Positions 9,104 to 48,745 of a stretch of 64,000 bases of DNA are shown in pieces. Each line of letters starts with the position of its first letter. Position 1 is the first letter of the stretch. A model generated the notes under the pieces. The model saw nothing but the letters and a program-made list of their open reading frames with translations. It was not told where the DNA came from and ran no database searches. A program made the position numbers and the translations under genes. Source of the stretch: Amyelois transitella (lineage: Eukaryota > Arthropoda > Insecta > Lepidoptera > Pyralidae). The stretch covers positions 2,569,501 to 2,633,500 of the forward strand of contig NC_083510.1 in assembly GCF_032362555.1 (NCBI RefSeq). The letters are read 5' to 3'.

Positions 9104-9169
9104 AATATTTAGTGATTAAAGACAGAGATATCTCTACATTTATCTCTTTCTGTGTTTATTATGCTGTCT

Positions 9170-10027: not shown

Positions 10028-10096
10028 GGAATGTTCTAGAGCGATGACGACACGAAGGATATATAAGGGAAATACGGGGGGCCGCCCGTCATTCTA
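10028..10096 (+). promoter_or_regulatory. Heat-shock-type core promoter on the plus strand
   Basis: A proximal heat-shock element at 10,028-10,041 (gGAAtgTTCtaGAg, last base off consensus) stands 19 bp before a TATA box, TATATAA at 10,060-10,066. An initiator TCATTC follows with its A at 10,091, 31 bp from the TATA box, the canonical distance. With the two distal elements at 9,091 and 9,170 this has the layout of an insect heat-shock gene promoter, but no protein-coding gene follows. Confidence 0.72.
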
Positions 10097-10209
10097 ATTT
10101 CGTAGGTCTGATAGTCAGGTCGTTAATTGTATTTACTACATTTTATTAAGGAAGATTTTATATCCGTATAAAGCTGTGAAAACGTTGAAATAAAGTGCAA
10201 AAAGTTAAA

Positions 10210-10287
10210 ATGTGTAGAAAAAATAAGTTAAAACACAAAGGCGGCAGTTTTAGAACACGGCTAAGGTATCAATTACGGCCAAGTTGA
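10210..10287 (+). CDS. 25-codon upstream ORF in the lncRNA first exon
   Basis: ATG with A at -3, reading MCRKNKLKHKGG and continuing to TGA at 10,285-10,287: 25 residues, strongly basic. The length falls within the 23-27 codons reported for the hsr-omega ORF of Drosophila species. No sequence similarity to that peptide is claimed. In Drosophila the ORF is translated mainly as a ribosome sensor, with no stable peptide known. This could equally be a chance ORF. Confidence 0.3.
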   Translation: MCRKNKLKHKGGSFRTRLRYQLRPS

Positions 10288-10297
10288 GGCAAACAAA

Positions 10298-10345
10298 ATG
10301 GCGGCGTGTTCGCCGAGTTGGAAAGATTTCGCTAAATTCGTATAA
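10298..10345 (+). CDS. 15-codon ORF with strong start context
   Basis: CAAAATGG is a near-ideal initiation context. The frame reads MAACSPSWKDFAKFV and stops with TAA at 10,343-10,345. It begins 10 bp after the previous short ORF ends. Possibly a second translated micro-ORF; too short to judge. Confidence 0.2.
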   Translation: MAACSPSWKDFAKFV

Positions 10346-12958
10346 TCCAATACTGGTTAAGGAACATAATGTATAAAAGAAGGAAAATAGAGGATTATAC
10401 ATCGAGGTACGTAGTAAAATTTATTGTTATACAAGTATATTATTTAATAGAAATATAATTTATAGGAAAATTTTTGTGACGCAGGTAGTTCGACCTTGAG
10501 GATATTTCCTCAATTTGATCTTATTACATTATTCTACGTAGGTATTTGGTTGAAATCTCTTTAGTATATAAGATCTTAGTTTATCGTAAAATAAGTGCGA
10601 ACGTGTTCGCCCTCGAATACCTACCTAGTTATTAGTAGCCGTTTATGAAATATACCTACAAGGGACCATTTACTCAAATTAGTTTTAAGTAATACATAGC
10701 CTATGTAGGCTAATTTTTAGTTATAATTTACTCTTACTACTCCTCTTAGATATTAATGGGTATCTAGATTAAATATAATAATTCGAGAGTTTTAACACAC
10801 ATGTGGGTTATTGAATACGATAGATATCCAAAGCAAATAGTCGCCATACTTATTAGGTAAATAAATTAGGTATGTTGCCTAGGCGTTCACATTTAATTTT
10901 TCGTGATATTTATTACCAATAGGTTTCATTTTAGTAAGAGCACGTACCTACGTGGTAAGATGAACTTTCAGCGAATGGTTCAAACATTAATTTAGGCAGG
11001 CAGTTATACGTTTCATCTATTCGATGGACCAACCTAGAAATGTCAAAAAAAGCCCTAGTACATGATAATTGTAGAGCTATAGGTACTTAATATCTCTCGA
11101 AATGTTATATTTGTTCAATTTAACCCTGTTAGTATAAACCATAATTACAGAAATTTATTTAATACCCACCTAACATAACATTCCCATTTCAAATGTGTTT
11201 TTTATCATAATTTTACTGTGCTAATTTTTCAGGAAAGAGTACCTACCAATGGTTTTACTTATACCTACTCGTTTTTAATTCGTGACGGCCTCGACAACTT
11301 CAAATCTTTTCTTCGGACATCATTCTATTATCGTGTTCATTCTTGGTAGGTAACCCAAGATTTCTAACGGTATAGTTCAGTTAACTATTACATATTTTAT
11401 AATTTTAATTATTAAAAATAAAAATCACTTAAATATTTATTTAGGTATAATTTAATAACTGCTCAAAAAGATCGAGTAAATACCTATATAAAAAATATTT
11501 ACTAATATTTTGATAAATAAACATCATGTAACTAAACGCGCAATAGACGCTAATACGCACACACGCATTGTGTGTGTTATAAATAACATACACTAGGCCA
11601 TTTAAGAATTCATTAAGGAAAATTTGAACATCGAAGTACGTGATTGCATTGATATTTGATTTTCAGATCATTTATTTTAACGTTGGTGTTGAGGGTCCAA
11701 GCAGGTTCCAGAAATCGTTCGCCAAAGTAGATTCGAGTTAAACAAAGTATAAGTTTTCGTCATCAGTAAAAATAATTGTGAAAAATATTAAACATTAGTT
11801 TTTGAAGGTAAAGTAATTTTCTTATATTAATAATAAAAAATAACTATAAAATGTTAAACAGTTTTTGATAATTCTAATCCACTCAATTTGTATTTTGATA
11901 TTACCTACCTATTAGGTATTTGTAAAAAATGACAATACATATTACAAATCTTAAATTGCCGTCTTAAAGTTATTATTTTCTTAAATCCCTAGAACCTTTT
12001 CAGATGAGTAATTTAGATTGCATCATATTTTCAAATGTCGTGAAATAATGGCGAAACGCGAATGATTTCATCAACGTAGTTAACTAGTTGCATTGTTGTT
12101 GATTTAAAAATTTAATCTTTGATCGGAGAAAACATTGCCAACAAGCACATGAATCCTTCGACGTCATTTATTTGTTTAAGTTTTCTACAATGCCAGTATG
12201 TTCTGTACCAAATTCGAAAACTCTTCCCGGAAATATAATTTTCACCTAGAAGGAAATATATGTATCTACCTAAATGCAGATCAATCATTACACGAATCTC
12301 CTATGGATCCAAGCAATTTCGAAGTTGCTTCAGTAGAAGTGCTGTTTACTGCTGACCTATTTTTGGAAATGACAGAATTAAAAAAAATGGTTTTCCTTCA
12401 TTTCTTCTACACAAATGGATTACAATATTCTTCATAGACCTTTAACATACATATAATAAATTAAAAAAAAAATCTAGAGCCCAAGTCCCGTAATTTGCAA
12501 TTATCACGAAGCTAATTGGAAAATTTGAAAATGACAATAAGAATAATTAGAATAACGTTTACTTTTTTATGCTCTTTAAGATGAATGGTTAAGTTAACAA
12601 AAGTTTATTACGTGATTTGGTGCTCTAATATTTAGTAAGAAAATCTAAAAGGTACCTATATGCAGCACGGTTAGCAGTGAAGCAGCACTATTAGGACGTT
12701 TTGGCAGTTTCGAGAGGCGCGGAATATTTGACTTTGGAAAAAAAAAACAGGTAAAAATATTTTAGGATTAATAAGATAATTAAAACCACGGATTATTGCT
12801 TATGTAGGTATATACTTAGGTAATTGTGCTACCTTTGATATCTGAAACAAATAAGTACATACGGTTCGAAACTTCACTATAGGTATAACGTAAAGTACCC
12901 AATGTCCGACAGACCACCAATGATCGACACATAAAAAGTAAAATAAAAAAAAGAAATA

Positions 12959-13069
12959 CCTGGTTGACTGGAAGAAATCCCTCACAGGGATAAGTCCGCC
13001 CTTGTACGTCGTTATTTTTAATGTTTTTTATGTATTACTTATAAAGAATTTACAAACAAACAAACAAAA
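12959..13069 (+). mobile_element. 3' tail of a non-LTR retrotransposon or SINE
   Basis: The block GGTTGACTGGAAGAAATCCC, ACAGGGATAAGTCCGCCC, TTGTACGTCG is a recurrent 3' end in lepidopteran genomes. It is followed by T-rich sequence and a short ACAA microsatellite tail, as left by target-primed insertion. No coding part remains. Confidence 0.6.
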
Positions 13070-14454
13070 GGATATACTAATGTTGTGTATTTGAACGTAA
13101 ACGAAGCATAGGTTTAGACAAGGTTCATCCAGCTCTCATTGCAAGTGTCACTTTTTACATTCGGTTATTTTGATAAAAATGGTGGAGCTTTAAATATCGA
13201 CCGGCAGAAGTTTTTAACGGAAAGCCAGTTTTATTAGCGAAATCACTAAGGAAGTGAGTTAGGTTTATTGCTCATAACTTTTTTCGGTTTAAAGCTACCA
13301 TTCTAAATTTTTAGGCTGGGTGCACGATTAATGGACCGTTAAATATTTGGTGTCCATAAATAGAACATGTCTATTACTAGATCTCGATTATTGGAACATG
13401 TCGAAAACCGGTTGTCGGTAAATGGATTTCTGCAGTTGAATATTAGGCCAAAAATACCATTAATATATATTTGTATATCTTGTAAATTTTTATATCACAT
13501 TCATTTCTACTTTAATATATCATGCAAAATACCCTAAAATTTTACTCAAAACTTCAAAATATGATAAAATAATAAAAATAATACAAATATTGTAAAAATA
13601 CTAGAGTTCGTGCGTTAAAGTGTCGATGATTGGGGGTTTTACCGTAATTAAGAAACACGTTCATACATAATTGTTATAAGATTCCGATGGACGACTTGTA
13701 AACTTATTTTTTTAATACGTACTATGTAGTTGTTATAGAGGCCTTACCAATAGCATAATTTGAGGCAGTACATACCTACACATCTGTGTAAACAATTTTC
13801 GTTTTAAACTGAAGTACCTATAATAGGTATGTACTTAATTGAAGAGTTGTTACATATTTGAAAGGCTCTACTATTATATCTCCTTATAGTAAGACGAGTG
13901 TATAAGCGATAATATTTTGGTAAAATAGTATTTATATCAGAACAAAATTTACTTCCATAAGCTAGGTAGGTGGGTATCTAAAAGAAAGTTGTCTTCATGT
14001 TCACTAGATTGAAAAATTGGTTTAAGTTGTATACGAAAATTCTGTTAAATCGAGTTGAAAAATCGGTTACATAATAAACTCGTTAAAGATATACCTATGT
14101 ATTATAGATTACCTATACTGTTACTATTTATGGAAAACACAATAATATAAGTGAAACACCAGAAATACACTGCATATAAAAGTTATTATACGTACAAATT
14201 TAAGAGCACTACAGGTATAACGTAGGTACTTACGTATTCATAGGTAGGCAAGTACTTACAGTCAGTATTATACCTAGTAGCAAATTTAAATTTTCATTAA
14301 TATTACATGCCTTTTACATATTTGCATCTCGTATGACATAGAAGCATTTAGCAAAAGCGTTTTTACTGCGTGGTTTCTTGCGATTTCTACTAAAAGATTA
14401 TTAGATTTAAAGACTACTATTCTTATTAAACGTACCTATATGTTAAACAAAACA

Positions 14455-14520
14455 AGACCAATACTGGACTGAGTTTCTTTCGGCGTTTCTTCTCAGCAGT
14501 GGTCTTTCCGAAACGCTGGT
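14455..14520 (+). repeat. Dispersed repeat, copy 1 (LINE-tail-like)
   Basis: The block GAGTTTCTTTCGGCGTTTCT, TCTCAGCAGTGGTCTTTCCG, AAACGCTGGTA is repeated 340 bp further right. Its GC content is above its surroundings, and the block is common in lepidopteran retrotransposon 3' ends. Confidence 0.65.
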
Positions 14521-14793
14521 AAATAAAAATAAACAATCGCATAAAAAAGAAAAACTAAAAACCGGTAATAAAATATAAAAAAAAAATCGAATTAAAATAT
14601 TGCAAATTGAAAATAGTTTTACAGCATCCAGATATGTTATACGTTTAATTTAATATTTTGACTGGTAAAGGAAAAATCGTTAATATCCTGAGCGGAAGCG
14701 GAGGCCCGTTGAATAAAATCTTATAAGTTCGTCATATAGTTTAAAGGCATTAAAATATATTTAAACAAATTATTTTTTTATTTTGTTTTTAAA

Positions 14794-14860
14794 ACAGACC
14801 AATACTGTTGAGTTTCTTTCGGCGTTTCTTCTCAACAGTGGTCTTTCCGAAACGCTGGTA
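14794..14860 (+). repeat. Dispersed repeat, copy 2 (LINE-tail-like)
   Basis: Second copy of the same block, with few differences (TCTCAACAGTGG in place of TCTCAGCAGTGG). Two copies in the same orientation suggest separate insertions or a local duplication. Confidence 0.65.
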
Positions 14861-15469
14861 GAAGTATTAATAACAACAGTTTGCAATGACAAAATATAAA
14901 ATTAATAAATTAAAATTAAACTTTAAACAAACATACATTATAAATATAACAAATAAGAAGAATTTTACTTGGTATTTTGGAAAATAACAGTCGAGTGAAA
15001 AGTAAAAATACTTATAAAGTAGAAAAATAATTGAATGAAATACCAACAACAGTGTTACTGCAATTGATGTAAGACGAACAAGGAGAAAAGAAAAACGAAA
15101 GAAAAAGAAAGTGTTACTAGTAGCCTTTGACTTCGGAGTACATACATACAGTACATAAAATCACGTCTATTGTGTTGCGGATTATTTTTATTTATTATTA
15201 ATATGTATTGATAAAAAAAATTCATTCGGCTATTACTAGCAAAAAGACAACCTACATAATTAAGTGCCAATATAGTTTTAGAAACAATTTGCGAAGAATA
15301 ACAACGCATTTTCTAGAAAAAAATATTTATTTTAAAAACAAGAATCGTATCGGAATCAAAAGTTTACTAGCCATAAGTATGCGTATCGGAAAGTTGTAAG
15401 GTTAACTTATCGTAAAATCAATAAGAATAATAAGAATAAAAAATGATAATTTAATACAATAATATATAA

Positions 15470-16195
15470 GGTTGATAATCGAATAAGCTTTATTCTAGTA
15501 AGGTTAAAAAAACAAGAGTTTGAAGTATAGGTAAGCTTATTCCAGCAAGGTCAAGAAGCATAAGTTTACAAGTGTCGGAAAGCTTATTCTAGTAAGGTCG
15601 AGGAACAAAAGCTTAAAGTGTAAAATATTTAAAGAGTAAGGTTGATTGCAAGTAAAAGCTAAATGTTTAGAATATGAGAAAACCTATTCTAAGTTGAAAA
15701 ACAAGAGTTTAAAATACCGTAAAAACTAAACAGGTTGATAAACAAAAGTTTAAAGTAATGGGAAGCTAATTGTAGTAAGATTGAGAAAACAAGAGTGCTT
15801 ATTCTAGTAAGGTTTAGTAAAGCTTTTAAAAGGTTCACTAGGAGTCAGAGAAACTCATATTTAATGAATGTTTCAAATACCGGTAATTTAAGCTTATTCA
15901 ATTAAGATTGAGTACAAGTTTTATAATCAAGTATTGAAAGAATCGTGAAGCCTTATCGATTAATGTTAATTACAAAATAAATAAACGAGAAACAAGTTTA
16001 GGAACAAATGTTCTGGAAAGGTAGAAAAACATAAGTCTGAAAAAGCTTATTGAAGAGTTAAAAATATTGGAAAGATTATTTAAGTAAGGTTGAGAAACAA
16101 GAGTTTAAAATATGAGAAAGCTTATTGAAGAGTTATTGGAAAGCTTATACAAGTAAGGTTGAGAAAAGAAAGTAAAAAATTTTGAAAGACTTATT
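15470..16195 (+). repeat. Tandem repeat field, A-type (~46 bp), first part
   Basis: Degenerate tandem units of about 46 bp built from GGAAAGCTTATTCTAGTAAG, GTTGAGAAACAAGAG, TTTAAAGTATC. All run in the same direction. Units vary in length and carry many substitutions, so this is an old array. It stops at the antisense LINE and resumes on its far side, which shows that the LINE inserted into a pre-existing array. Confidence 0.85.
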
Positions 16196-19100
16196 CAAAA
16201 TTCAAAATTCAAAATTTTTTATTCATTATTATAGGATATTATTATATCGCTTAATAATTGTCGTATGGTTTAACAACTTGGTTGACGTCAAATATATTAC
16301 TTAAAAACTAAGTTTACTGCCGCTTCCAAGGCGTCAGTGCAGAAGAAGCGGTAACAAACTGCACTGCAGCATTTTCTTTAACAACGTCAACTTCACAATA
16401 TTAAATTATACTTAGAATATAATGTGGACGGGAGAATACATTGTTCACGGGAGATTTATATATTTATGAGATTTAATATTGAAAAAAGAAAAATATATAT
16501 ATATATTATATATATATATTTTATGGATTGCCAATTTTAAAAAGATTTATGTACAGAGTGTACTGAAATTTTGATTTAAGTTCAAATTAAACTACAATTA
16601 ATTACGAGGTTCCTGTGCCAAGCTCGAGCCAGATGTTTTTATCATTAAGGTAATCATCAGTCCTATAATAAGCCTTCTCACAAAGTACTTTCTTTACATA
16701 CTCTTTGAATTTTCGGTAGGGCATATCAAGAACAGACTCCGGCAACCTATTATAAAATCGTATACAGTTCCCCATAAATGATTTACTGACTTTGCTAAGC
16801 CTATGAAACGGTATGACTAATTTATGTTTATTACGTAAATTTCTATCAGTTGTGGCACTAACTTTTTGAAAAAAAGAGGTATTTTTCCTAACATACATTA
16901 TAAGATCAAAAATGTACTGGGACGCTACTGTAGGTATGTTTATTTTCTTAAAGAGTTGTCTTAATGAGTCTCTTGGTCCTAAGCCGTAAATTGCGCGAAC
17001 GGCCCTTTTCTGAATTATAAAAATAGTTTGTATATCAGCCGCGCTACCCCATAAAAGTAAACCATAAGATAACAAGCTATGAAAATAGCTGAAATAAACA
17101 AGCCTAGCTGTAGCTACATCTGTCAATTGTCGGATCCTCCTAACAGCATAAGCGGCAGAGCTAAGTCTATTGGATAGTTTAGAAATATGAGCACCCCACT
17201 GTAGCTTTGCATCAATTATAATTCCTAAAAACTTTGTATTTTCAACAAATTCTAATTTCTGGCCTTCCAGTATTATGTCAGTATTGGCCTGCCTTACGTT
17301 TGGAAGGGTAAATTTAATGCATTGGGTCTTATTAGCATTTAAAAGAAGATTGTTGGTTGAGAACCAGATAGATATGGCCGACAGTATATTATTAACCGAA
17401 CTTACATTTTCGCTATGGCGATCTAATTTAAATATTAAAGAAGTGTCATCGGCAAACAGCACTATACCCGCCTGTTTTTCCACCATAAAAGGCAGGTCAT
17501 TGACATATACCAAGAAGAGGAATGGTCCTAAAATTGAGCCCTGAGGAACACCCATTGAGACGCTTGATCCGCTTGACTTTACTCCATTAATATCTACAGT
17601 TTGAAGCCTATCAGTCAAATAGGATGCCATTAGTTTAGTTGATTTGTGGTCAAACCCATATTGACGAAGTTTACGCAAAAGTGTCTGATGATCTACGCAA
17701 TCAAATGCTTTAGAGAGATCGCAAAAGACTCCAACTGAATCCTGTGAACTCTCCCACGCGTCATAGATTTGAGTAACAAGTGCTACTCCCGCATCAGTGG
17801 TGGACTTCCCGGCAGTGAACCCATATTGTTGGGAATGGAAAATGTTATTGATTTTAAAATATTGTTGCATTTGATTAAGCATCATCTTCTCAAACACCTT
17901 GCTCAAAACTGGCAATATAGAAATAGGTCTATAATTGCCAAGGACTGTTTTCTCCCCTTTTTTGAATAGAGGTATTAATTTGCTACATTTCATTAAATTT
18001 GGAAAAATACCCTCATCAATACATTCATTAAATATAAAAGCTAGATCAGATGCAATAATATCTATGATTTGACTTATGATACTAACAGACATACCCCAAT
18101 GGTCTTCAGACTTTTTCAAATTAAGTTGTTTGAACGCCTTTAATATAATATCAGAGTTAACATATTTAAATTTAAAGACAGATTTGATGGGAGTTGTGTT
18201 ATTATTAAGTAGGGTTTCAGCGCGCAATGGACAAGAGTCAACGTCAGAAGTTAGCTCCACAGGGATTTTTGCAAAGAAATTATCAAAAGCATTTACTATG
18301 TCCTGAGTTTTAGAAATACTTTTGTTACCGGATGATATTTGTTTAATACTGTCTCTATCTTTGATTTTGCCAGATTCTTTATTAATAATGTTCCATGTTT
18401 CTTTAATTTTATTTGGTGCGTTGTTTATTTTACTACTTATGTGAAAAGACTTGGCTTGCCTGCAAACTTTTTTAAATAATTTTGAATAATTTTTGACATA
18501 TTCTACAAAACTGGGGTCAAAATTGTATTGTTTCTGGGCATATAAGTCATATAACTTATTCCTACTCTTGTGAATACCTAATGTAGCCCATTCACTGAAC
18601 TGTAATCTATTACGAATATTGACTTGTTTCTGCTTGAACCTTTTTGAGTATTCAGCAGAAATCATATTAAATAAATTGTTATAATGTTCATTAGGATTAT
18701 TTCCAGAATATGTTAAAGTATTTAATTGATTTGCAATGTTTATTTTAAATTTTCTTATGTTTTTGGAAGAAAGAGGTCTACACATAATTTTATCATTATT
18801 TAAATTGTTTAAGGACTCTTTCTCAAAGGTAACATATTGACCGGTGTGATCCGAGGGCAATTTGTGAATAATTGATTTCCGTATAAAAAGATTATTGCAA
18901 AAAAAATTATCCAGACACTTGGCAGATGTAGATGTTATTCGGGTTGGTTCGAAAAAAACATACTCTAAATTATAAGATTTAAACAAATTAATAAATTGTA
19001 TACTAACAGTTGATTTAACTAAAATGTCAATGTTAAAATCACCACAAATAATTAATTTTTTGTTACATTTTGAGGTAACATGTAACACTTGATCCATTAT

Positions 19101-19482
19101 TTTTAAAAATTGTTTAAATTCACTGTTTGGGGGACTGTACACACAAACAATTATATGATGATCTAGCTCGGCACAGGTCACTTCGGCACACCGCTCAACC
19201 GAAAGTCTGGTTATGTCTGTTCGCTCTTTACAGCGAAGACCGCATTTGATAAATATTATAGACCCACCTCTAATTGCAGACTTTCTGTTTAAGCAGCTCA
19301 CAATATTATAATTGTTTAGGCTGAACATCATCTCCCCCTCCATGAGCCAATGCTCAGTCAAACATAAAATGTCCACATTTAATTCTTCTAAAACTAGTTG
19401 TACTTCTAATTCTTTGCCGGGAAGACCTTGTATATTTTGATGGATAATTCTTAACCCTCGAGGGTTTCCCGTTGTATGAGTA
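16196..19482 (-). mobile_element. Non-LTR retrotransposon (LINE), 5'-truncated, inserted in the array
   Basis: About 3.3 kb. Its 3' end (left side) finishes in a short TTTTGAA-type microsatellite at 16,196-16,217, typical of target-primed insertion without poly(A). The body encodes endonuclease and reverse transcriptase. The 5' end near 19,482 cuts into the endonuclease reading frame, so ORF1 and the promoter are missing. A-type host repeat flanks both sides. The sequence looks like the Jockey/CR1 side of the LINEs; the exact clade is not determined. Confidence 0.85.
16602..19376 (-). CDS. LINE ORF2: endonuclease and reverse transcriptase
   Basis: 924 residues from the first in-frame Met; the frame stays open for roughly 30 further codons upstream (including NPRGLRIIHQNIQGLPGK, the first endonuclease motif) until the truncated 5' end. 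The apurinic-type endonuclease shows LTEHW (residues 6-10), GDFNID (112-117) and PSDHTGQ. The reverse transcriptase shows LSKAFDCVDH, PQGSILGPFLFLVYVNDL and the catalytic FADD (641-644). The C-terminal part carries IQKRAVRAIYGLGPRDS, common in arthropod LINEs. No frameshift or stop interrupts the domains, so the insertion is fairly young, but without ORF1 and 5' UTR it is probably dead. It runs antisense to the surrounding repeat RNA. Confidence 0.92.
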   Translation of the reverse strand: MDILCLTEHWLMEGEMMFSLNNYNIVSCLNRKSAIRGGSIIFIKCGLRCKERTDITRLSVERCAEVTCAELDHHIIVCVYSPPNSEFKQFLKIMDQVLHVTSKCNKKLIICGDFNIDILVKSTVSIQFINLFKSYNLEYVFFEPTRITSTSAKCLDNFFCNNLFIRKSIIHKLPSDHTGQYVTFEKESLNNLNNDKIMCRPLSSKNIRKFKINIANQLNTLTYSGNNPNEHYNNLFNMISAEYSKRFKQKQVNIRNRLQFSEWATLGIHKSRNKLYDLYAQKQYNFDPSFVEYVKNYSKLFKKVCRQAKSFHISSKINNAPNKIKETWNIINKESGKIKDRDSIKQISSGNKSISKTQDIVNAFDNFFAKIPVELTSDVDSCPLRAETLLNNNTTPIKSVFKFKYVNSDIILKAFKQLNLKKSEDHWGMSVSIISQIIDIIASDLAFIFNECIDEGIFPNLMKCSKLIPLFKKGEKTVLGNYRPISILPVLSKVFEKMMLNQMQQYFKINNIFHSQQYGFTAGKSTTDAGVALVTQIYDAWESSQDSVGVFCDLSKAFDCVDHQTLLRKLRQYGFDHKSTKLMASYLTDRLQTVDINGVKSSGSSVSMGVPQGSILGPFLFLVYVNDLPFMVEKQAGIVLFADDTSLIFKLDRHSENVSSVNNILSAISIWFSTNNLLLNANKTQCIKFTLPNVRQANTDIILEGQKLEFVENTKFLGIIIDAKLQWGAHISKLSNRLSSAAYAVRRIRQLTDVATARLVYFSYFHSLLSYGLLLWGSAADIQTIFIIQKRAVRAIYGLGPRDSLRQLFKKINIPTVASQYIFDLIMYVRKNTSFFQKVSATTDRNLRNKHKLVIPFHRLSKVSKSFMGNCIRFYNRLPESVLDMPYRKFKEYVKKVLCEKAYYRTDDYLNDKNIWLELGTGTS

Positions 19483-22424
19483 TTGTTGTTAGGTGGAGAA
19501 ACAAAGAGTTAAAAGTATTGGAAAGCTATAAAAGTAAAGTTAAATAAAAAGATGTATAAAGTATAAGAAAGCTTATTGTTGTTAGGTTGTGGAACGAGTT
19601 AGAAGTATTGGAATTCTTATTATAGTATAAACTACAAAAATACTAGTGATGTCAAGAAACGAGAGCTTAAAGTATCTGAAGTCGCATTGTGGTATAAAAT
19701 TTTAATATTAAGTAACAGGAGCTATAAGTATCGGAATACTTATTATAGTATAACGACTCAAGCAGTAGTAAGGTTAAGAAACAAAAGTATAGTATCGGAA
19801 TTCTTAATATTAGTATGAACAAGTAAAATAAGGTTGAGAAACAGAGTTAAAATTTCGGAAAGCTTATTCTAGTAAGGTTGAAAAACAAGAGTTAGCTTAA
19901 AATATTGGGAAACATTACCTATCAAAGATGATAACAAAATAAAGAAACTAGTAACAATTGTATTGAAGTAAAGAAAATATTATTTAAATTAATAAGTTGA
20001 GAAACAAGTGTTCAAAGTATCGGAAAGCTTATTCAAGTAAGTGAAGAAACAAGATTTTAAATTATAGGAATCTTATTTAAGTAAGTTTAAGGTACGAGAA
20101 AGCTTATTGAAGAGTTATAATTATTAAAAAACTTATTTCAAAAAGGTTGAAAAAAAAGTGTAAAAAGTAAAAGAAAGCTAATTGTTGTTGGGCTGAGAAA
20201 CAAGAGTTAAAAGTATTGGAATTCTTATGACAGCACTAGCGACTAAAATTTAGTAATGTCAAGAAACAAGAGGTTTAAGTATCTTTTTATAGTACTAAGT
20301 TCAAATTATAGTATAAACGACTATAATACTAGTAAGGATAAGGAACAAGATTATAAAGATCGGAATACTTATTATAGTATGAACGACTGAAACAGTAGTA
20401 AGGTTAAGAAACATAAAGTATCGGAATACTTATTATAGTATGAACGACTGAAACAGTAGTAAGGTTAAGAAACATAAAGTATCGAAATACTTATTATAGT
20501 ATGAACGACTGAAACAGTAGTAATGTTAAGAAACATAAAGTATCGGATTACTTATTATAGTATGAACGACTGAAACAGTAGTAAGGTTAAGAAACATAAA
20601 GTATCGGAATACTTATTATAGTATGAACGACTGAAACAGTAGTAGGCAAGGTTAAGAAACATAAAGTATCGGAATACTTATTAAAGTATGAACGACTGAA
20701 ACAGTAGTAAGGTTAAGAAACATAAAGTTTCGGAATACTTATTATAGTATGAACGACTGAAACAGTAGTAAGGTTAAGAAACATAAAGTATCGGAATAAT
20801 TATTATAGTATGAACGACTGAAACAGTAGTAAGGTTAAGAAACATAAAGTATCGGAATACTTATTATAGTATGTACGACTGAAACAGTAGTAAGGTTAAG
20901 AAACATAAAGTATCGGAATTTTTATTATAGTATGAACAACTGATATACTAGAAAGGTTTAGAAACAAGAATTAAAAGTTTCGTAAAGCTTATTGTTGTTA
21001 AGGTGAGAAACGAGTTAATTTAAAAATTATCATGAAGCATTACCTATCAAAGATGACTACAAAATAAAGAAACAAGTAACAATGGTTTTTTAAGTAAAAA
21101 AAAAAATACTTTTGTATAGTTAAGAAACAAGTGTTCAAAGTATCGTAAGCTTATTCAAGTAGGTTAAGAAACAAGATTTAAAAGTATAGGAAATCTTATT
21201 TAAATAAATTTGAGAAACAACAGTTTAAGGTATGACAAAGCTTATTGAAGAGTTAAAAGCATTGAAAAATTATACCAAAAAGGTTGAGAAAAAAGAGTAA
21301 AAAGTAAAGGAAATCTTATTATTGTTAGGTTGAGAAACGAGTTAAAAGTATTGGAAGGCTCATTTAAGTAATGTTGAGAAATAAGAGTTTAAAGTATAAG
21401 AGTATAGTACTTAGTTAAAATATTGGAAAGCTAATTCAAGTAAGGTTGACGAACAAGAGTAAAGTAACGGAATTAATATTAAAGTATCAACGACTAAAAT
21501 ACTAGGAAGGTTTAGCAATAAGAGTTCGAAGCATCGAAAATCTTATTTTAATGAGATATTGTAAACAAGAGTGCTTTTTCAGAAAAAAAGCTTGATGTAT
21601 CAGAATTCTTACTATAGTATAAACGACTAAAGTACTAGTAACGTTTAAAATAAGAGCTTAAACTATCGGGATTCTTATAATAGTATGTAACTATAAAAAT
21701 TCTATTAAGGCATAGAAAATAAAAGTAGGGGAATTTTTAATATAGTATCAACGACTAAAACACTAGCTAGGTTAAGAAACAAAGAGTTCATAGTATCGGA
21801 ACGCTTATTCTACCGATACTAAGGTTGAGAAACAAGAGTTTAAAGTATTAAAAAGCTTATTTCAGAAGGGATGAGAAAAAAGAGTAAAAAGATAATGTTT
21901 TAGGAAACCTTATTTTTGTTAGGTTAAGAAACAAGTGTTAAAAGCATTGGAAGGCTTATTCTATTAGAGTTGAGAAACAAGAGTTTAAAGTATAGGTAAT
22001 ATTAATTTGAATTTATAATAATATTTGAATTTATGTTATATCAACGATTAAATACTAGTAAGATTTAACGACTAGAGTTAAAAGTATAGAAAAGCTTATT
22101 CTAATGAGAGAGTGCTTATTCCAGTTAGGTTGAGAAACAAGAGTTAAAAGTATTGGAGGGCTTATTCTAGTAGGGTTGAGAAACAAGAGTGTAAAGTATA
22201 GGAAAGTTACTTGTTCTTAGGTTGCTAAACGAGTTAAATGTATTGGAAGGCTTATTCAAGTAAGGTTGACAAACAAGAGTAAAGTATCGGAATTTATATT
22301 ATAATATCAAAGACAAAAATACTAGTAGGGTTTAGGGTCAAGAGTTTATAGTATCGAAAAGCTTATTCTAATTAGACAGAGAAAACAAGAGCTTAAAGTA
22401 TCGTTATTCTTTCTCGTTTCTTCT
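19483..22424 (+). repeat. Tandem repeat field, A-type, second part
   Basis: Continuation of the ~46 bp A-type units beyond the LINE, same orientation, with mixed unit lengths (46 to 61 bp). Recurrent words are GGAAAGCTTATTCTAGTAAG, GGTTGAGAAACAAGAG, AAAGTATCGG and ACTAAAATACTAGTAAGG. A homogeneous 61-bp cluster lies inside (listed separately). No reading frame is maintained. Confidence 0.85.
20361..20950 (+). repeat. Homogeneous 61-bp tandem cluster
   Basis: Close to ten near-identical 61-bp units: CGGAATACTTATTATAGTAT, GAACGACTGAAACAGTAGTA, AGGTTAAGAAACATAAAGTA, T. One copy has a 4-bp insertion (AGTAGGCAAGG at about 20,640). The units are variants of the surrounding A-type repeat that have recently been amplified or homogenised. 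Confidence 0.92.
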
Positions 22425-22929
22425 TTCTTATCGGTAACCTATCACAAACTAGATTTGTTTTTCTTCGATTTTTATTTGTTCGAAAACGGTACAACGAAGT
22501 TTTAAATGCCAAATGGGTTCTTTACCATATTTTCTGTTTATATAAATCCAATAAATATATTTTTCGTCTTCAAAAAAAAACTATCTACCGAAAATCAAAG
22601 TATGTAATTTTTATTTGAAAATTTATTTGGTAACAAGAATTTTATTTTCTAGAAGTATTAATGATAGAAATAACTTCTTCCAAATTATTATTCACACAGA
22701 TTTTCAATAACTTCTATTTTATTAACAGTAATTTCGTACATGCAGGATTAATATATTATAATAAATGACACTTATTTAAGTAACAATAATATAAGTAACA
22801 ATAACTTTATTTTCTAGAAGTGTTAACAATAGAGGTAACTTCTTCTAAATTATTATTTATACAGATTTTAAATAACTTCAATTTAATTAACAGTAATTGT
22901 GTAAATGCAGAATTAATATATAACAATAT

Positions 22930-38720: not shown

Positions 38721-41700
38721 GTTAAATAGATTGGCTACTAGGCCATGAGATAAAGTATCGGAAAGCTATATGTTAAATAGGTTGGCTACTAGGCCATGAG
38801 ATAAAGTATCGGAAAGCTATATGTTAAATAGGTTGGCTACTAGGCCATGAGATAAAGTATCGGAAAGCTATATGTTAAATAGGTTGGCTACTAGGCCATG
38901 AGATAAAGTATCGGAAAGCTATATGTTAAATAGGTTGGCTACTAGGCCATGAGATAAAGTATCGGAAAGCTATATGTTAAATAGGTTGGCTACTAGGTCA
39001 TGAGATAAAGTATCGGAAAGCTATATGTTAAATAGGTTGGCTACTAGGCCATGAGATAAAGTATCGGAAAGCTATATGTTAAATAGGTTGGCTACTAGGC
39101 CATGAGATAAAGTATCGGAAAGCTATATGTTAAATAGGTTGGCTACTAGGTCATGAGATAAAGTATCGGAAAGCTATATGTTAAATAGGTTGGCTACTAG
39201 GCCATGAGATAAAGTATCGGAAAGCTATATGTTAAATAGGTTGGCTACTAGGCCATGAGATAAAGTATCGGAAAGCTATATGTTAAATAGGTTGGCTACT
39301 AGGCCATGAGATAAAGTATCGGAAAGCTATATGTTAAAAAGGTTGGCTGCTAGGCCATGAGATAAAGTATCGGAAAGCTATATGTTAAATAGGTTGGCTA
39401 CTAGGCCATGAGATAAAGTATCGGAAAGCAATATGTTAAAAAGGTTGGCTACTAGGCCATGAGATAAAGTAAAGTATCGGAAAGCTATATGTTGAAAAGG
39501 TTGGCTACAAGGCTGTGTGATAAAGAAAAATATCGTAAAGCTATTTGATGAATAGGTTAGCTACTAAGCCATGAGATAAATTATCGGAAAGCTATATGTT
39601 ATATAGATTGGCTACTCGGCTATGTGATAAAGTAAAGTATCGGAAAGCTATATGTTATATAGATTGGCTACTAGGTCATGAGATAAAGTATCGGAAAACT
39701 ATATGTTAAAAAGGTTGGCTACTAGGCCATGAGATAAAGTAAAGTATCGGAAATCTATATGTTAAATAGGTTGGTTATTAGGCCATGAGATAAAGTATCG
39801 GAAAGCTTTATGTTAAATAGGTTGGCTACTAGGTCATGAGATTAAGTATCGGAAAGCTATATCTACACTAATATTATAAAGAGGAAAACTTTGTTTGGTT
39901 GTAATGAATAGGCTCAAAAACTACTGGACCGATTTTAAAAATTCTTTCACCATTCGAAAGCTACATTATCCACGAGTAACATTTGGAAAAAAATAGGGTT
40001 CCGTAATAATATATAAAAATAATTGGCAAAACAGCGTTTGCCGGGTCAGCTAGTGTTATATAAATTGGCTACTAGGTCATGAGATAAAGTATCGGAAAAC
40101 TATATGTTAAATAGGTTGGCTACTAGGCCATGAGATAAAGTATCGGAAAGCTATATGTTATATAGATTGGCTACTAGGCCATGAGATAAAGTATCGGAAA
40201 GCTATATGTTATATAGATTGGCTGCTAGGCCATGCGATAAAGTATCGGAAATCTATATGTTAAATAGGTTGGCTACTAGGCCATGAGATAAAGTATCGGA
40301 AAGCTATATGTTATATAGATTGGCTACTAGGCCATGAGATAAAGTATCGGAAAGCTATATGTTATATAGATTGGCTGCTAGGCCATGCGATAAAGTATCG
40401 GAAATCTATATGTTAAATAGGTTGGCTACTAGGCCATGAGATAAAGTATCGGAAAGCTATATGTTATATAGATTGGCTACTAGGCCATGAGATAAAGTAT
40501 CGGAAAACTATATGTTAAATAGGTTAGCTACTAGGCCATGAGATAAAGTATCTGAAAGCTATATGTCAAATAGGTTGGCTACTAGGTCATGAGATAAAGT
40601 AAAGTATCGGAAAGCTATATGTTGAAAAGGTTGGCTACAAGGCTGTGTGATAAAGAAAAATATCGTTAAGCTATTTGATGAATAGGTTAGCTACTAAGCC
40701 ATGAGATAAATTATCGGAAAGCTATATGTTATATAGATTGGCTACTAGGCCATGAGATAAAGTATCGGAAAACTATATCTTAAAAAGGTTGGCTACTAGG
40801 CCATGAGATAAAGTATCGGAGAGCTATATGTTAAATAGGTTGGCTACTAGGTCATGAGATAAAGTATCGGAAAGCTTTATGTTAAATAGGTTGGCTACAA
40901 GGTCATGAGATTAAGTATCGGAAAGCTATATGTTATATAGATTGGCTACTAGACCATGAGATAATGTATCGCAAAGCTATATATTATATAGATTGGCTAC
41001 TAGGTCATGAGATAAAGTATCGGAAAACTATATGTTAAAAAGGTTGGCTACTGGGCCATGAGATACAGTAAAGTATCGGAAAGCTATATGTTAAATAGGT
41101 TGGCTACTAGGCCATGAGATAAAGTATCAGAAAACTATATGTTAAATAGATTGGCTACTAGGCCATGAGATAAAGTATCGGAAAGCTATATGTTGTATAG
41201 ATTGGGTACTAGGCCATGAGATAAAGTATCGGAAAGCTATATGTTATATAGATTGGCTACTTGGCCATGAGATAAAGTATCGGAAAGCTATATGTTATAT
41301 AGATTGGCTACTTGGCCATGAGATAAAGTATCGGAAAGCTATATGTTATATAGATTGGCTACTAGGCCATGAGATAAAGTATCGGAAAGCTATATGTTAA
41401 ATAGGTTGGCTACTAGGCCATGAGATAAAGTATCGGAAAGCTATATGTTAAATAGGTTGGCTACTAGGCCATGAGATAAAGTATCAGAAAGCTATATGTT
41501 AAATAGATTGGCTACTAGGCCATGAGATAAAGTATCGGAAAGCTATATGTTAAATAGGTTGGCTACTAGGCCATGAGATAAAGTATCGGAAAGCTATATG
41601 TTAAATAGGTTGGCCATGAGATAAAGTATCGGAAAGCTATATGTTAAATAGATTGGCTACTAGGCCATGAGATAAAGTATCGGAAAGCTATATGTTAAAT

Positions 41701-42225
41701 AGGTTGGCTACAAGGTCATGAGATAAAGTATCGGAAAGCCATATGTTAAATAGGTTGGCTACTAGGCCATGAGATAAAGTATCGGAAAGCTATATGTTAA
41801 ATAGGTTGGCCATGAGATAAAGTATCGGAAAGCTATATGTTAAATAGATTGGCTACTAGGCCATGAGATAAAGTATCGGAAAGCTATATGTTAAAAAGAT
41901 TGGTTACTAGGCCATGAGATAAAGTAACGAAAAGCTATTTGTTAAAAAGGTTGGCTACTAAGCTATGTGATTAAGTAAAGTATCGGAAAGCTATATGTGA
42001 AATAGGTTAGCTAATAGGCTATGTGATAAAAAAGTGTCGGAAAGCTATATGTTAAATAGGTTGGCTACTAATCTAATTTATAAAGTATCGGAGAGCTATA
42101 TGTTAAAGAGGTTGGCTACTAGGTTATATCATAGAGTATCGAAAAGCTATATGTTAAAGAGGTTCTCTATTAAGCTACGTGATTAAAAAAAGTATCGTAA
42201 ATCTATATGTAAAATAGTTTGGCTT
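38721..42225 (+). repeat. 51-bp tandem array B1
   Basis: Roughly 65 units (length divided by period) of GGAAAGCTATATGTTAAATA, GGTTGGCTACTAGGCCATGA, GATAAAGTATC, all on the plus strand. The left ~600 bp is nearly perfect; variants (GGTCATGAG, GTTATATAGATTGG, AAAGTAAAGTATC) recur in blocks, which shows segmental duplication. The consensus has 18 A, 14 T, 13 G and 6 C. Although 51 is divisible by three, all six frames have a stop in each unit. A 192-bp Helitron interrupts it at 39,862. Confidence 0.97.
39862..40053 (+). mobile_element. Short non-autonomous Helitron in the 51-bp array
   Basis: Starts TCTACACTAATATTATAAAG and ends GCCGGGTCAGCTAG. It lies exactly between A (39,861) and T (40,054), the Helitron target. 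Removing it restores an intact repeat unit (GGAAAGCTATA joined to TGTTATATA). It has no coding sequence. Confidence 0.9.
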
Positions 42226-42245
42226 CTAAGCTAGCTAGATCTAGA

Positions 42246-43003
42246 TACATTAAAGATAGAGGGATAAAGTATCGGAAAAATTAACTAATGAAATCTATAA
42301 TTGTACGTTGAATTTTATATCACGTTTGAATAATATTATCTTTTTCACATTTGTATTAATAATTTAATCATGTAGTCTATACATTGGTTTTAATTAGGTG
42401 TTCGAAAATTGTATGCAAATATTTAGATAACATTGACAATCTCGAAAAAAATTCTATCTTTTTATCTCGGATCTATGTCCATAGTACAAACGTTTCACAT
42501 AAGTTTAAATCACATGACTCACACTTACCTACCCTTGTTTGTATTTAATTATTGATTGGGTTTGTTTGAAATACCTACTTTAATTAATGCATTGCTCCTT
42601 AAGAATTTTTATGTGTGCAATTGGTTATGTGCTTTCAACGGGGTGCTTAGCAAATATTTCATCTGCGGTTTTTGTTAGCTTGCATGAATCAATATCTGAA
42701 AATGTTATGTAAGAAACCTGGCAATCGCACTTAGTATTAGAAAAGCTCCAATTCACTCATTTATGCTCATAAAAGTTTATTATAATAACTGTTAGTTTAA
42801 CAATGCGTACTTACAGGTTTAATAAATTTATAAAAATTATTACAAATTATTTTTTCTTGAAAATACTTTATTAAATACGCTTTAATGAAGGCAAATGGGT
42901 TATGAGATAAGTAAAGAATCGAAGAGCTTTGCGTTAAATAGAGTAGCTACTTAGCGATTCGATAAAGTAAGGTATCTGAAAGCTATGTATATTTTTAAAG
43001 TTA
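42246..43003 (+). repeat. Fifth copy of the higher-order spacer
   Basis: Almost identical over ~700 bp to 38,020-38,720, including the leading AAAGTATCGGAAAAATT, the CTTACCTACCCTTGTTTGTA block and the trailing GGTATCTGAAAGCTATG. It separates the two 51-bp arrays, so array B1 plus spacer appears to be a duplicated higher-order block. Confidence 0.88.
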
Positions 43004-44240
43004 AATAGATTGGCTACTAGGCCATGAGATAAATCGGAAAGCTAAGTTTATGTTAAAAAGGTAAGCTACTAGGCCATGAGATAAAGTATCGGAAAGCTAT
43101 ATGTTAAATAGGTTGGCTACTAGGCCATGAGATAAAGTATCGGAAAGCTATATGTTCAATAGGTTGGCTACTAGGTCATGAGATAAAGTATCGGAAAGCT
43201 ATATGTTAAATAGGTTGGCTACTAGGCCATGAGATAAAGTATCGGAAAGCTATATGTTAAATAGGTTGGCTACTAGGCCATGAGATAAAGAAAAGTATCG
43301 GAAAGCTTTATGTTAAATAGGTTGGCTACTAGGTCATGAGATAAAGTAAAGTATCGGAAAGGCCATGAGATAAAGTATCGGAGAGCTATATGTTAAATAG
43401 GTTGGCTACTAGGCCATGAGATAAAGTATCGGAGAGCTATATGTTAAATAGGTTGGCTACTAGGCCATGAGATAAAGTATCGGAAAGCTATTTGTTAAAT
43501 AGGTTGGCTACTAAGCTATGTGATTAAGTAAAGTATCGGAAAGCTATATGTTAAAAAGGTTGGCTACTAGGCATGAGATAAAGTAACGAAAAGCTATTTG
43601 TTAAATAGGTTGGCTACTAAGCTATGTGATTAAGTATCGGAAAGCAATATGTTAAAAAGGTTGGCTACTAGGCCATGAGATAAAGTAACGAAAAGCTATT
43701 TGTTAAATAGGTTGGCTACTAAGCTATGTGATTAAGTAAAGTATCGGAAAGCTATATGTTAAATAGGTTGGCTACTAGGTCATGAGATAAAGTAACGAAA
43801 AGCTATTTGTTAAATAGGTTTTCTACTAGGCCATGAGATAAAGAAACGAAAAGCTATTTGTTAAATAGGTTGGCTACTAAGCTATGTGATTAAGTTAAGT
43901 ATCGGAAAGCGATATGTTAAATAGGTTGGCTACTAGGTCATGAGATAAAGTATCGGAAAGCTATATGTTAAATAGGTTGGCTACAAGGTCATGAGATAAA
44001 GTATCAGAAAGCCATATGTTAAAAAGGTTGGCTACTAGGCCATGAGATAAAGTATCGGAAAGCTATATGTTAAATAGGTTGGCTACTAGGCCATGAGATA
44101 AAGTATCGGAAAGCTATATGTTAAAAAGGTTGGCTACTAGGCCATGAGATAAAGTATCGGAAAGCTTTATGTTAAATAGGTTGGCTACTAGGTCATGAGA
44201 AAAAGTATCGGAAAGCTATATGATAAAAAGGTTGGCTAGT
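43004..44240 (+). repeat. 51-bp tandem array B2
   Basis: About 24 units of the same 51-bp repeat as B1, with a recurring variant TAACGAAAAGCTATTTGTTA paired with AAGCTATGTGATTAAGT units. It ends abruptly near GGTTGGCTAGTACGAGATTG. Confidence 0.95.
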
Positions 44241-45850
44241 ACGAGATTGGTATGTTAAAAGATATTAGGGAAGTATAAGAACGCTTTATGTTAGAGATTG
44301 GAGTATCAGAAAACTATATGTAAAAGAGGTAAGCTATTATATTATGAAAAGAAGCGTGGTACGCGTCGGAAAAATTTATATAGAATCCTTAAATAATCCT
44401 TAGTACGTGTCCTTAAATCGGAAAGAGTATAGTTAAGATAAGTTTAGAAAAACGATTAAAAAATAAAGTCATTACATAGAAAACTAGTACGGGAGGTAGG
44501 TATGTAAGTTTGAGTGTAAGTGTTAAATAAGTTTTCAAACTATCGGAAAGCAGTGTATAAAATAACGAAGAATATTATTTGACTTAATATTAGGTTTTAA
44601 ATGCATCGAACGATTTAAAAATAAATATTCTTAAGTAACTAAAAGTAGTTTGTTCAAATTATTGAAAAGCGTGTAAAAGAAGTTTTAAGTATTGGAAAAC
44701 GTAAGAAAAATCTGAGAGGGAGGAATATCTGAAAAAATACTGTGTACATTTGAAACATTTGAAAAAAAAATAACCGCTGATAAATTTACAACGATGACGT
44801 TAAGGAAAGGTTAAAAAATCTAAAATGTGCATTACATTTGCTTTGGTAAACTACATTACCTACTTATTTATTATAAAAAGAATATGTGTTGTAGGTATGT
44901 AAGGATTCAACGAAATCATACTAGTTAATAACAGTTAAAGTAGATTGATGTATAAACAATGATAACTGCTGTTCGATCGTTATAAGACTACGCCGATCAT
45001 TAATAACTTTCGATTTTAAAAACAAGTGCGAAAATGTTAATAAATAATAAAGCTTTTTATAATTTTTTCCGCAAAAAATCTTGTAGGTAGAAATTATGAA
45101 CAAAAATATCTGCTTACTTTTGTTATTACTGACTCTATCTACTTATATGTTTTATTAAGTTTGTTTATAAAACCACCTGCGACCTGTTATTCGTTTTCTT
45201 GATTTACAGCTTATGTGTATTTATTTAATGACAGCTATTCATCATAAATACAGAAGTTGACTGCATCTGAGAAGAAAAGGTTAAAATAGTTGTACGACTA
45301 TTAAATTACTTATATTTTGTTGTGTTTTATGTTTAACCAAATTATGCACAAACCCTTTGCAATATTAGTTTGACCATCAATTGTAAAAGGAGGCTTGAAA
45401 TATATTTATCTACAAATTATACCTAAGTATATATTATAGTATCAAGTTTGCTATCATTGTGGTTTGTGGCTTGTGGTTTGACACAAAAAAAAAACAAATA
45501 TAAACCTCGTAATACCCTTAAAACGGAATGCTTAAACGTTTTTAACATATAAAGTCAAAAATTTAGAGATGTATCTAATATTTATATCTACTTATGTTAA
45601 TATTTGAATTTTTATGTTAATTTAATCAATGTGTCCTGTTTTCCAGTATGAGTAAACTAATTAATAGCAAAAATTCAGAATTCCATAGAAATATCACTAT
45701 ATTGGTTTTTGTGTTGACTTTTTTTTTATCCATTATTTTAGTTATAATTCCCTATACATTTAAGTAATATACTAACATCAGTATACCTTTAATGTTTTAA
45801 TGTATTAATTATTATATTATATTAATGCTACAACAATAATCAAATTAATA

Positions 45851-45920: not shown

Positions 45921-46521
45921 TTAATCAAATTAAATAACTAGGTACTAGATAAAAACTGTGAGTTCTTAACTATGCATATTTCGGTAACAAAATATAGGTT
46001 AATAATAGGTAGATGTTATGGAAATAAAAGCAGTAGGAAAATGTGGATGAATTTATTCGTGTGGGTACTGATTAAATAAGAATAGAAATGCTTTAAACAT
46101 AATTTTTTCTTTGTATTTTAATTTGTAGGTATATATTATATGTGTGTGTTGCTTTAGAATTCTTCCTAATCTTGAGCTCTGTTTTGAATGTGCGTTTAAA
46201 GATTTGGAGTAACACTAACAAGCATGGGTCGTGAGATGGAAGGATTAATTTGCCCGCTAGTATCACAAGGCTATTTTTTCAAAAGAATAATTGATAGAAT
46301 TAGAAGTTTGCTTCAAATCGTAACCATCTAATGTGGTCTTTTTGAATAATGGCATACAAGTATGATTAATTGCATCTGGTAATATTGGGTAAATTATCAG
46401 CATAGAAAATGAATTGCTTGTTTCAATTTAATAAAACATTAAAAATAGGCAATTATATTACTTAGATGAATGCTCATTGGATTGAACATGTTAATTTAAA
46501 TACTGCAATCGTTATAATTAG

Positions 46522-46790
46522 TGCCGTGTGGTTTCCGGCACCAATACAAAAAAGAATAGGACCACTCCATCTCTTTCCCATGGATGTCGTAAAAGGCGAC
46601 TAAGGGATAGGCTTACAAACTTGAGATTCTTTTTTAGGCGATAGGCTAGCAACTTGTCACTATTCGAATCTCAATTCTATCTTAAAGCCAAATAGCTGAA
46701 CGTGGCCTATCAGTCCGCTCAGGACTGTTGGCTCTGTCTACCCCGCAAGGGATATAGACGTGATTATATGTATGTATGTATGTATGTATG
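46522..46790 (+). mobile_element. Lep1-like element, full length
   Basis: Complete copy from TGCCGTGTGGTTTCCGGCAC through GGACCACTCCATCTCTTTCC, GTCGTAAAAGGCGACTAAGG and GCTCTGTCTACCCCGCAAGG to a TATG tail. It is flanked by a perfect 10-bp direct repeat TTATAATTAG (46,512-46,521 and 46,791-46,800), a clear target-site duplication. Confidence 0.92.
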
Positions 46791-48693
46791 TTATAATTAG
46801 TTAACGTAGATGTACGCGTAAAAGTATAGAATTTTGTATTAAGTATTATATAGGTATTAGGCATGCATGTAAGTAATTTTCCCCATATAGAAATATAAAT
46901 CTTGTCACATATAAATGTTTTACTATGTGTCGATTGTAAAGGTCTTGAATAGTAGGTACCCAAATCCTTCAAGTGCATACGAGTAGATACCTACATAAAA
47001 TAAATAACAAATATATGCACGTTGTAAGAGTATGTACGATTAGATAGGTGTGTATGTTAATTTTAAGAAAAGTAGGTATATACAATTTTATGTAAAAGAA
47101 TGTTCTGTCTTGTAAAACCAATATAAGTATAATAATAAAAAAACTTTCTAAGAGAGCCTATGGCTAGTAAGTACCTACCTAGTGAATTAAGTTGGGTAAA
47201 ATACTTAAATATTAAATTTCTTGACTCTGCGTTAAAAAATAAGAAATCTTTAGCAGTCAGTCAGTACCTGAGGATGAAATAAGTAGGAATTAATGAACGA
47301 AATATGGCGTATCTATACGAGAAAATCATAAACGTTATAAAATGGCATTAAGATGGAAAGATATTCTTGAAAAAAAAAATAAGCATAATACATTGAAATA
47401 TAATAAATATGTAACAGAGTTAACAAAAATATTGAAATAATGTTAATTTATTAACGCTAGGAATCGGAAATATCTTTAGATGCAGCATTAGCAAAAACAA
47501 TTTTTTATGGATAGCCACATAATAGGTATTCAGAATATTTTATTACATTATTAAGATATCTGACTTGTATGTTTGAAATATCTTTATGGTGTAGACCACC
47601 ATGTTAGTATGACTACAAACAATAAGCTCGAACATGCGCAAGCGCTTTATTGAAAGTTAACTTGAAAGGAAAAGATACTGATGAGATATTAGAATCTGAA
47701 ATATCGTAACGGAACAAACATAAAAATATCAAAGTGCAATATGCAGGCAACGACTTACAATTAATGAAATAAATAACTAACAATTGCTTTAGTCAGAAAA
47801 TCTACAGCGTATATCGGAAATAAATCTTTACATATACATCATATATATGGTAAAATTCTTTATATCTAGAACCGAGGACCATGATAAATATTTAGTCAGT
47901 AAGTAACAGACTCATGTCAATGTGACGAATGCTTTCTAACAGAACCACTTAAGATATTAAAAACACAAAAATATGGGATTATATCTAAGTATATAAAGTC
48001 TATATTAAGTGAGGTATAAAAACTGCAAAAATGTCTGAATTATTTTAATATGAGATAACTACGCCATCTATAACTTTCTATTTATATAAAAAAATTATCC
48101 GTTGACCTATGCGTAAGAAAACGTATCAAACTTATTATGATAGTGATTGAAGTATTTCAGAATTTAAGAACTAAAGTAAATCGTTTTACAATAAAAATTC
48201 ATAGAATAGAAACTATACTGTAGATTATAATAAAAGAGAACTCGATATTAAAAGTAATGCTATACACTATATTCTAAAATCGTAACAAATTTATATATCA
48301 GTACGTACAGGGAAAACATATACCTACCTACATTTGTTAAAAAGTTAATAAGTGCTGATTACTGCGGGTTTATCCTAATGGAATCTCTTCCAGTAGAGAA
48401 AATTTTAGGAAAAAAAATGAAAAAAGTGAGTGTAAAAATACATGAGCAAAAATAAGAACATAACAAAAGTTCAAATACCCATTTAAATAACAAAACGTAT
48501 AAAAAGTGCAAACGTCTTAAATTATATAATTTGTAATAAAAATAACATCAACGGCCTCCGTCTGCGTCAATATTTGAATCTATGAAAACGCAAAAACTCA
48601 AAGAAAAAAAACAAAATTCAATAATAATTAAATTAAGTATTTCTGAAATATTTGTAAATGAAAAATATACAATGGATGACAAAATTATAAAAC

Positions 48694-48728
48694 AATAAAC
48701 TTGATTGACACCAATAAATACAAATAAA
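48694..48728 (+). terminator. Cluster of three polyadenylation signals
   Basis: AATAAA occurs at 48,694, 48,713 and 48,723. A T-rich, GT-containing tract follows (GTGTACTTTCTTTAAAG, then TTTTTTATATTTTGTTG near 48,800). Base composition flips here from A-rich to T-rich (17 A, 34 T at 48,841-48,900). This is the best candidate 3' end for the plus-strand transcript. Confidence 0.5.
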
Positions 48729-48745
48729 ATATATAATGTACCTAC

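Follow-up and report, generated by a model that had tools for sequence, protein, structure and literature searches.

A locus beside an Hsp70 gene in the window, the 64,000-nucleotide stretch of DNA analysed here (C6:2569501-2633500), may hold an HSF-driven long non-coding RNA gene that starts near 10091 on the plus strand and works like Drosophila hsr-omega, an explanation to which, in full, we give a probability of roughly one half. The sequence anatomy is real and well delimited: it comprises the promoter layout, the orientation of the repeats and, at the sensitivity of the search, their restriction to this locus, the absence of long plus-strand ORFs and the boundaries in composition. From it we infer transcription, heat induction, splicing, continuity and scaffold function of the candidate, with promoter and repeats belonging to one heat-induced RNA. 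That the locus is a heat-inducible non-coding unit at all seems on balance probable, and the more specific reading, in which a second insect order has a scaffold gene like hsr-omega, is offered tentatively. The features on which the argument draws are the following.

5833..7761, minus strand: Hsp70 gene, an intronless open frame of 642 codons (Pfam HSP70, 2.3e-257); the divergent neighbour
9090..9183, no strand: HSE units in two clusters, the candidate start lying about 0.9-1.0 kb downstream
9907..9920, no strand: GAGA tract of seven GA units, upstream of the core promoter
10029..10093, plus strand: core promoter with HSE, TATA, GC-rich spacer and initiator; predicted start near 10091
10091..10406, plus strand: putative exon 1 with micro-ORFs and a donor
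10407..14838, plus strand: putative intron, neutral in composition, with donor GAG/GTACGT at 10407 and acceptor candidates at 14500 and 14839
14839..15382, plus strand: start of putative exon 2, purine-rich
15383..44703, plus strand: repeat tract of units of about 44-61 bp sharing AAAGTATCGGAAAGC, in one orientation, interrupted by transposons
16602..19508, minus strand: frame of a LINE-type element with endonuclease and reverse transcriptase domains, an antisense insertion in the tract
22930..24529, minus strand: MULE-type transposase frames with a FLYWCH domain, an antisense insertion in the tract
38721..44238, plus strand: youngest-looking sub-arrays, of 51-bp and 56-bp units, dense in TAGG
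46850..48745, plus strand: A-rich unique 3' region ending at AATAAA 48694, 48713 and 48723

The promoter that the first-pass annotation described, an HSE, a TATATAA box and an initiator at 31 bp, is present. The HSE (GAATGTTCTAGAG, an 8/9 match) begins at 10029, TATATAA lies at 10060 and the initiator TCATT at 10089, all on the plus strand, with the initiator A (10091) 31 bp from the first T of the TATA box; at the level of sequence only, this is a heat-shock-type promoter (HSE, TATA, initiator) of the kind expected of hsr-omega. HSE-like sites alone were discarded as promoter evidence because their count is at chance level (19 in the window versus 22.4, sd 5.4, in 30 block shuffles), so that the HSE by itself proves nothing. 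A composite pattern was also defined, in which an HSE matching in at least 8 of 9 positions lies at most 70 bp upstream of TATAWA and TCA[GT]T follows 25-38 bp from the TATA start. Searched on both strands, it matches twice in the window, at the Hsp70 promoter (7874, minus strand) and at the candidate (10060, plus strand). Its mean in 60 block shuffles was 0.2, with at least one match in 8 of the 60 and at least two in 3, and there was no match on either strand of 20 control stretches of 10 kb (200 kb).

The candidate also resembles the Hsp70-family promoters in its proportions. Its TATA-to-initiator offset is 29 bp, and five of the seven Hsp70-family promoters examined have offsets of 29, 29, 30, 30 and 32 bp, these five including two divergent pairs with near-identical promoters; the other two (L007 and L012) have no TATA-initiator pair by the composite rule. 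A looser pattern (TTCTAGA, TATAWA, TCAKT), searched across 33 contigs and 327 Mb of genome, gave 65 matches versus 69 for a reversed control, indicating that most of these matches arise by chance, and since it is not enriched we place the weight on the composite pattern, the GC-rich spacer and the context. For any 5 kb of a single strand the expectation is about 0.0005 looser-pattern matches. The GC content of the candidate's TATA-initiator spacer is 0.74, the highest among 63 genome-wide looser-pattern matches (the 65 minus two that overlap; median 0.27), and three Hsp70 promoters have spacers of 0.54-0.65. The 601-bp 5' region is single-copy, its sole match in the genome being its own locus, and is thus neither a high-copy transposon nor a sequence recognisably copied from another promoter. 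This single match, together with an Hsp70 search that listed nothing in 10-48 kb, gives no support to an origin as a copied Hsp70 promoter or Hsp70 relic. The GAGA tract at 9907..9920 may be a binding site for GAGA factor.

These results bear on the proposal that chance alone is at work, the promoter match being accidental or a decayed remnant and the repeats a minisatellite that grew locally and is not transcribed. The 8 of 60 shuffles with a composite match and the chance-level count of the looser pattern are in keeping with it, as are the ability of tandem growth to account for both orientation and skew and the occurrence of skewed stretches elsewhere (below). The agreement of the GC-rich spacer and the offset with the Hsp70 promoters, the empty 200 kb of controls, and a position 2.2 kb from Hsp70 on the repeat strand all argue against coincidence, and we regard this proposal as quite unlikely.

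The neighbouring Hsp70 gene has its own HSE-TATA-initiator promoter, with TATA at 7874 on the minus strand, and the candidate, on the same strand as the repeats, is located 2.2 kb from that gene. Other members of the Hsp70 family are encoded elsewhere in the genome, some of them arranged as divergent pairs on contigs C17 and C24. The HSE clusters at 9090-9183, between Hsp70 and the candidate start, are possibly a shared heat-shock enhancer. The second of them contains the window's only perfect three-unit HSE, at 9171; one perfect HSE per window equals the shuffle mean, which leaves the role of this site uncertain. Divergence from Hsp70 and HSE clusters between the two starts would also suit a local regulator, in which transcription or RNA, together with the clusters at 9.09-9.18 kb, opens or insulates Hsp70 and the repeat RNA has no scaffold role. 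This would leave the retention of a 29-kb tract of one repeat family unexplained, and in flanks of about 1.5 kb around other Hsp70-family loci there are no copies of the repeat core, so the arrangement is not general there; we consider a purely local role very unlikely.

Downstream of the promoter, the putative short exon, micro-ORFs, donor and intron-like spacer noted in the first-pass annotation can all be located, but the donor is of a type common in controls and the micro-ORFs are chance-like. The first ATG of exon 1 (10210) opens 25 codons, compared with the 23-27-codon ORF-omega, a length that random sequence also gives; a second micro-ORF (10298) has 15 codons and a third (10369) is still open at the donor. 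The micro-ORFs were set aside as evidence. Of 16 donors in 10090-16500 the one at 10407 scores best, and equally good donors occur at 2.2 per 10 kb per strand in controls. Among 361 AG sites the acceptor candidates 14500 and 14839 rank 1-3 and 2-5, respectively, varying with the length of tract scored; neither passes the cut-off of a stricter score, by which no good acceptor lies outside the MULE. Acceptors scoring at least 6 between 10405 and 48700 number two on the plus strand, both in the MULE, versus nine on the minus strand and an expectation of about 9.8, a plus-strand shortage that is due in part to the purine-rich repeats. Both acceptor candidates sit in a short sequence found twice within 350 bp, which we take to be transposon-derived. 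Segmentation places a break in purine content at 14849 (gain 20.4), near the acceptor at 14839; segmentation of the 200 kb of controls gave four breaks with gains of at least 8, one of them stronger (57.1). The 14849 break is near the start of the purine-rich repeat tract and so is not independent of it.

Coding capacity is low throughout. On the plus strand the longest ATG-initiated ORF between 10090 and 48745 is 89 aa long and lies inside the LINE, with a maximum of 79 aa outside it, so that the locus, like hsr-omega, has no significant protein-coding capacity. Both transposons that interrupt the tract are antisense to the candidate; within the MULE-type region the frame 22930-23409 had no Pfam match. 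The ORF that begins at the third ATG (10369) does not close before the donor, so that putative exon 1 might be imagined as the first exon of a heat-inducible protein-coding gene with downstream coding exons. This ORF stops after 32 codons when joined to 14839, and every one of the window's five open frames of 150 codons or more is on the minus strand, making a protein-coding gene highly improbable. A search of Rfam gave no match at the gathering threshold.

The repeat tract bears out the earlier description of about 29 kb of tandem repeats with a shared core in one orientation. With up to three mismatches allowed, the 15-bp core occurs in 184 copies on the plus strand and none on the minus strand between 15522 and 44686; five shuffles, counted on one strand, gave 0-4 copies, and the 200 kb of controls gave 15 (11 plus, 4 minus). 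A profile search (E of at most 10) found 235 plus-strand matches, two of them outside the tract, and one minus-strand match. The tract spans about 29.3 kb including the two transposons, and profile matches cover 8.9 kb. Units that share the core measure about 44-47, 61, 59/115 and 51/56 bp, and direct duplications of up to 2.4 kb connect parts of the tract. Probes from the 51-bp, 61-bp and 59/115-bp arrays matched the genome 26, 6 and 1 times, always at this locus, a confinement that holds at the sensitivity of the search, which skips very common words. The locus thus has a long 3' one-way tandem repeat tract at a single site, as hsr-omega does. An exact 26-base repeat word had no matches in viral and prokaryote contigs, as expected. 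An 89-bp inverted match joins an interruption of the 51-bp arrays (39859-39947) to a distant site in the window (60376-60289) and is perhaps a small mobile element.

UAGG is an hnRNP A1-type motif, and on the plus strand TAGG reaches 21/kb in the 51-bp arrays (controls: mean 2.9/kb, maximum 4.5); elsewhere in the locus it occurs at 3.4-6.2/kb, close to the 4.0 of the downstream flank. Other properties of the repeats were less distinctive. Within the 51-bp unit, conservation of the core does not significantly exceed that of the remaining positions (p=0.09) and was rejected as evidence of constraint, and none of three pieces folded better as RNA than its shuffles. GC skew is high over the tract and similarly so in one of 20 control stretches (L030, 0.18 over 10 kb); in that stretch (C12:1200001-1210000) the skew over the first 4 kb is 0.22-0.46, matching the candidate locus. 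Tandem growth by itself yields a single orientation, which is therefore not evidence of transcription. A plus-strand depletion of AATAAA, ATTAAA and GTRAGT was dropped, as it is limited to the repeat tract, whose units merely lack these words.

At the 3' side, the poly(A) cluster and compositional switch named in the first-pass annotation are both there, but such clusters are common in controls (30 AATAAA-type triplets in 200 kb, both strands), and the triplet was set aside as evidence. AT skew over 46.85-48.7 kb is 0.179, compared with a maximum of 0.134 in 100 control windows; purine content over the same interval (0.576) is inside the control range. Directly after the AATAAA words at 48694, 48713 and 48723 the AT skew flips at 48.75 kb, with a step of 0.439 that is reached at a fraction of 0.0003 of 3,680 control positions, the position having been picked after the profile had been viewed. 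Purine segmentation of 44-53 kb gave a sole break at 44819 and none at 48.75 kb, and the composition of 44.7-46.45 kb is neutral. A SINE-like element is present in several copies and both orientations (46520-46789, about 1391-1664, 57767-58015, 58764-59024 and 61161-61388), the first of which falls within the proposed 3' part of the transcript. Shortly beyond the candidate 3' end, at 49370-49718, a 175-bp unit is present in two tandem copies with 97% matches. An open frame of 166 codons (53054-53554, minus strand), located in DNA that is GC-richer and with no Pfam match, is probably an exon of a gene convergent with the candidate.

The transcript might instead end much earlier, as a short heat-inducible non-coding RNA terminating near 14.9-15.4 kb, with the repeats a neutral minisatellite outside it. 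Poly(A)-signal words on the plus strand at 14904, 14909, 14915 and 15435 are consistent with such an end, which the first three could mark, and the repeat core lacks clear constraint. Skewed composition runs past the repeats, however, through unique sequence to the flip at the poly(A) cluster, and promoter and repeat share a strand (a one-in-two chance), so that we judge a short RNA alone to be unlikely.

Under the preferred explanation, a long hsr-omega-like RNA, HSF bound to the HSE upon heat shock would switch on the TATA promoter. Transcription would then cross a short exon, a 4.4-kb intron and the roughly 29 kb of purine-rich repeats with their UAGG motifs before reaching a poly(A) site near 48.73 kb, which would yield a single transcript of the whole 38.7 kb, induced by heat and with its splice donor at 10407. 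Once made, the repeat RNA would remain nuclear and, like Drosophila hsr-omega, act in stress as an architectural RNA to which hnRNP-type proteins are drawn; an additional short transcript ending near 14.9-15.4 kb is possible. This explanation draws on the two composite promoters of the window and their absence from the controls, the Hsp70-like spacer and offset, the 184/0 strand bias of the core, the single-locus probes, the short plus-strand ORFs and antisense transposons, the 14849 break near the acceptor at 14839, the AT-skew flip at the poly(A) cluster and the TAGG density of 21/kb. Against it stand the chance-level HSE count, the 8 of 60 shuffles with a composite match, the unenriched looser pattern, the common donor and poly(A) triplet, the p=0.09 for the core, ordinary folding, the control with matching GC skew, the 44819 break, the lack of an acceptor outside the MULE by the stricter score, TAGG near flank level outside the 51-bp arrays, the orientation expected of tandem growth, and purine content in the control range at 46.85-48.7 kb. 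Donor, micro-ORFs, poly(A) cluster and one-way repeats each carry little weight alone.

In hsr-omega, exon 1 measures about 475 bp and contains an ORF of 23-27 codons, the intron measures about 700 bp and exon 2 about 750 bp, and the 280-bp repeats that follow occupy 5-15 kb (PMC9865238). Its RNA collects hnRNPs in omega speckles, which have so far been described from D. melanogaster alone and not thoroughly examined in other species (PMC9530788). At the level of sequence the locus has in common with hsr-omega an HSE-type promoter and, at one site, kilobases of tandem repeats in one direction with no long ORF; a putative short first exon with a small ORF and a candidate intron may be further parallels. 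They differ in repeat unit (about 44-61 bp here, with no 280-bp unit as in D. melanogaster), in tract (about 29 kb with transposons versus 5-15 kb), in intron (a putative 4.4 kb versus about 0.7 kb) and in setting, since the locus adjoins Hsp70 whereas hsr-omega (93D) is not known to lie beside it. Among Drosophila species the length of the hsr-omega repeat unit varies. For the hsr-omega repeat nonamer, ATAGGTAGG, no confirming paper was found in the open-licence literature; the 51-bp units carry ATAGGTTGG, one mismatch away, and exact copies number three on the plus and one on the minus strand of the window, none in the 51-bp arrays. What the arrays offer is a near match to the nonamer only.

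Human satellite III RNAs of nuclear stress bodies are HSF-dependent and proposed to gather RNA-processing proteins (PMC9032817, PMC9530788). The likeness lies in an HSF-dependent repeat RNA, at our locus a predicted one; satellite III forms pericentric arrays on several chromosomes, whereas the present repeat was found at one place behind a discrete promoter. TCAST of Tribolium castaneum is likewise an insect tandem repeat, with heat-shock-responsive small RNAs (PMC9032817), but it is a major pericentric satellite for which siRNAs are the product discussed. No lepidopteran counterpart of hsr-omega was found in titles and opening abstracts among the matches listed from the open-licence literature. 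Of the hsr-omega-like architecture first proposed, a promoter followed by a non-coding, one-way, single-locus tract stands, while the unit length differs and several cues are weak; the layout resembles that of hsr-omega, and we do not claim membership.

The locus provides exact coordinates at which the idea of a repeat-RNA stress scaffold can be tested. It is possible, and we put it forward tentatively, that a non-fly insect order has its own heat-shock-driven architectural RNA gene, in which an unrelated 44-61-bp repeat lies beside Hsp70 and the units of the youngest arrays have by convergence become UAGG-rich and able to bind hnRNP A-type proteins. If this is true, stress scaffolds of repeat RNA, as in hsr-omega and satellite III, would have arisen repeatedly, and the same gene design in a second insect lineage would suggest that repeat RNA is what cells turn to again and again to hold RNA-binding proteins in stress.
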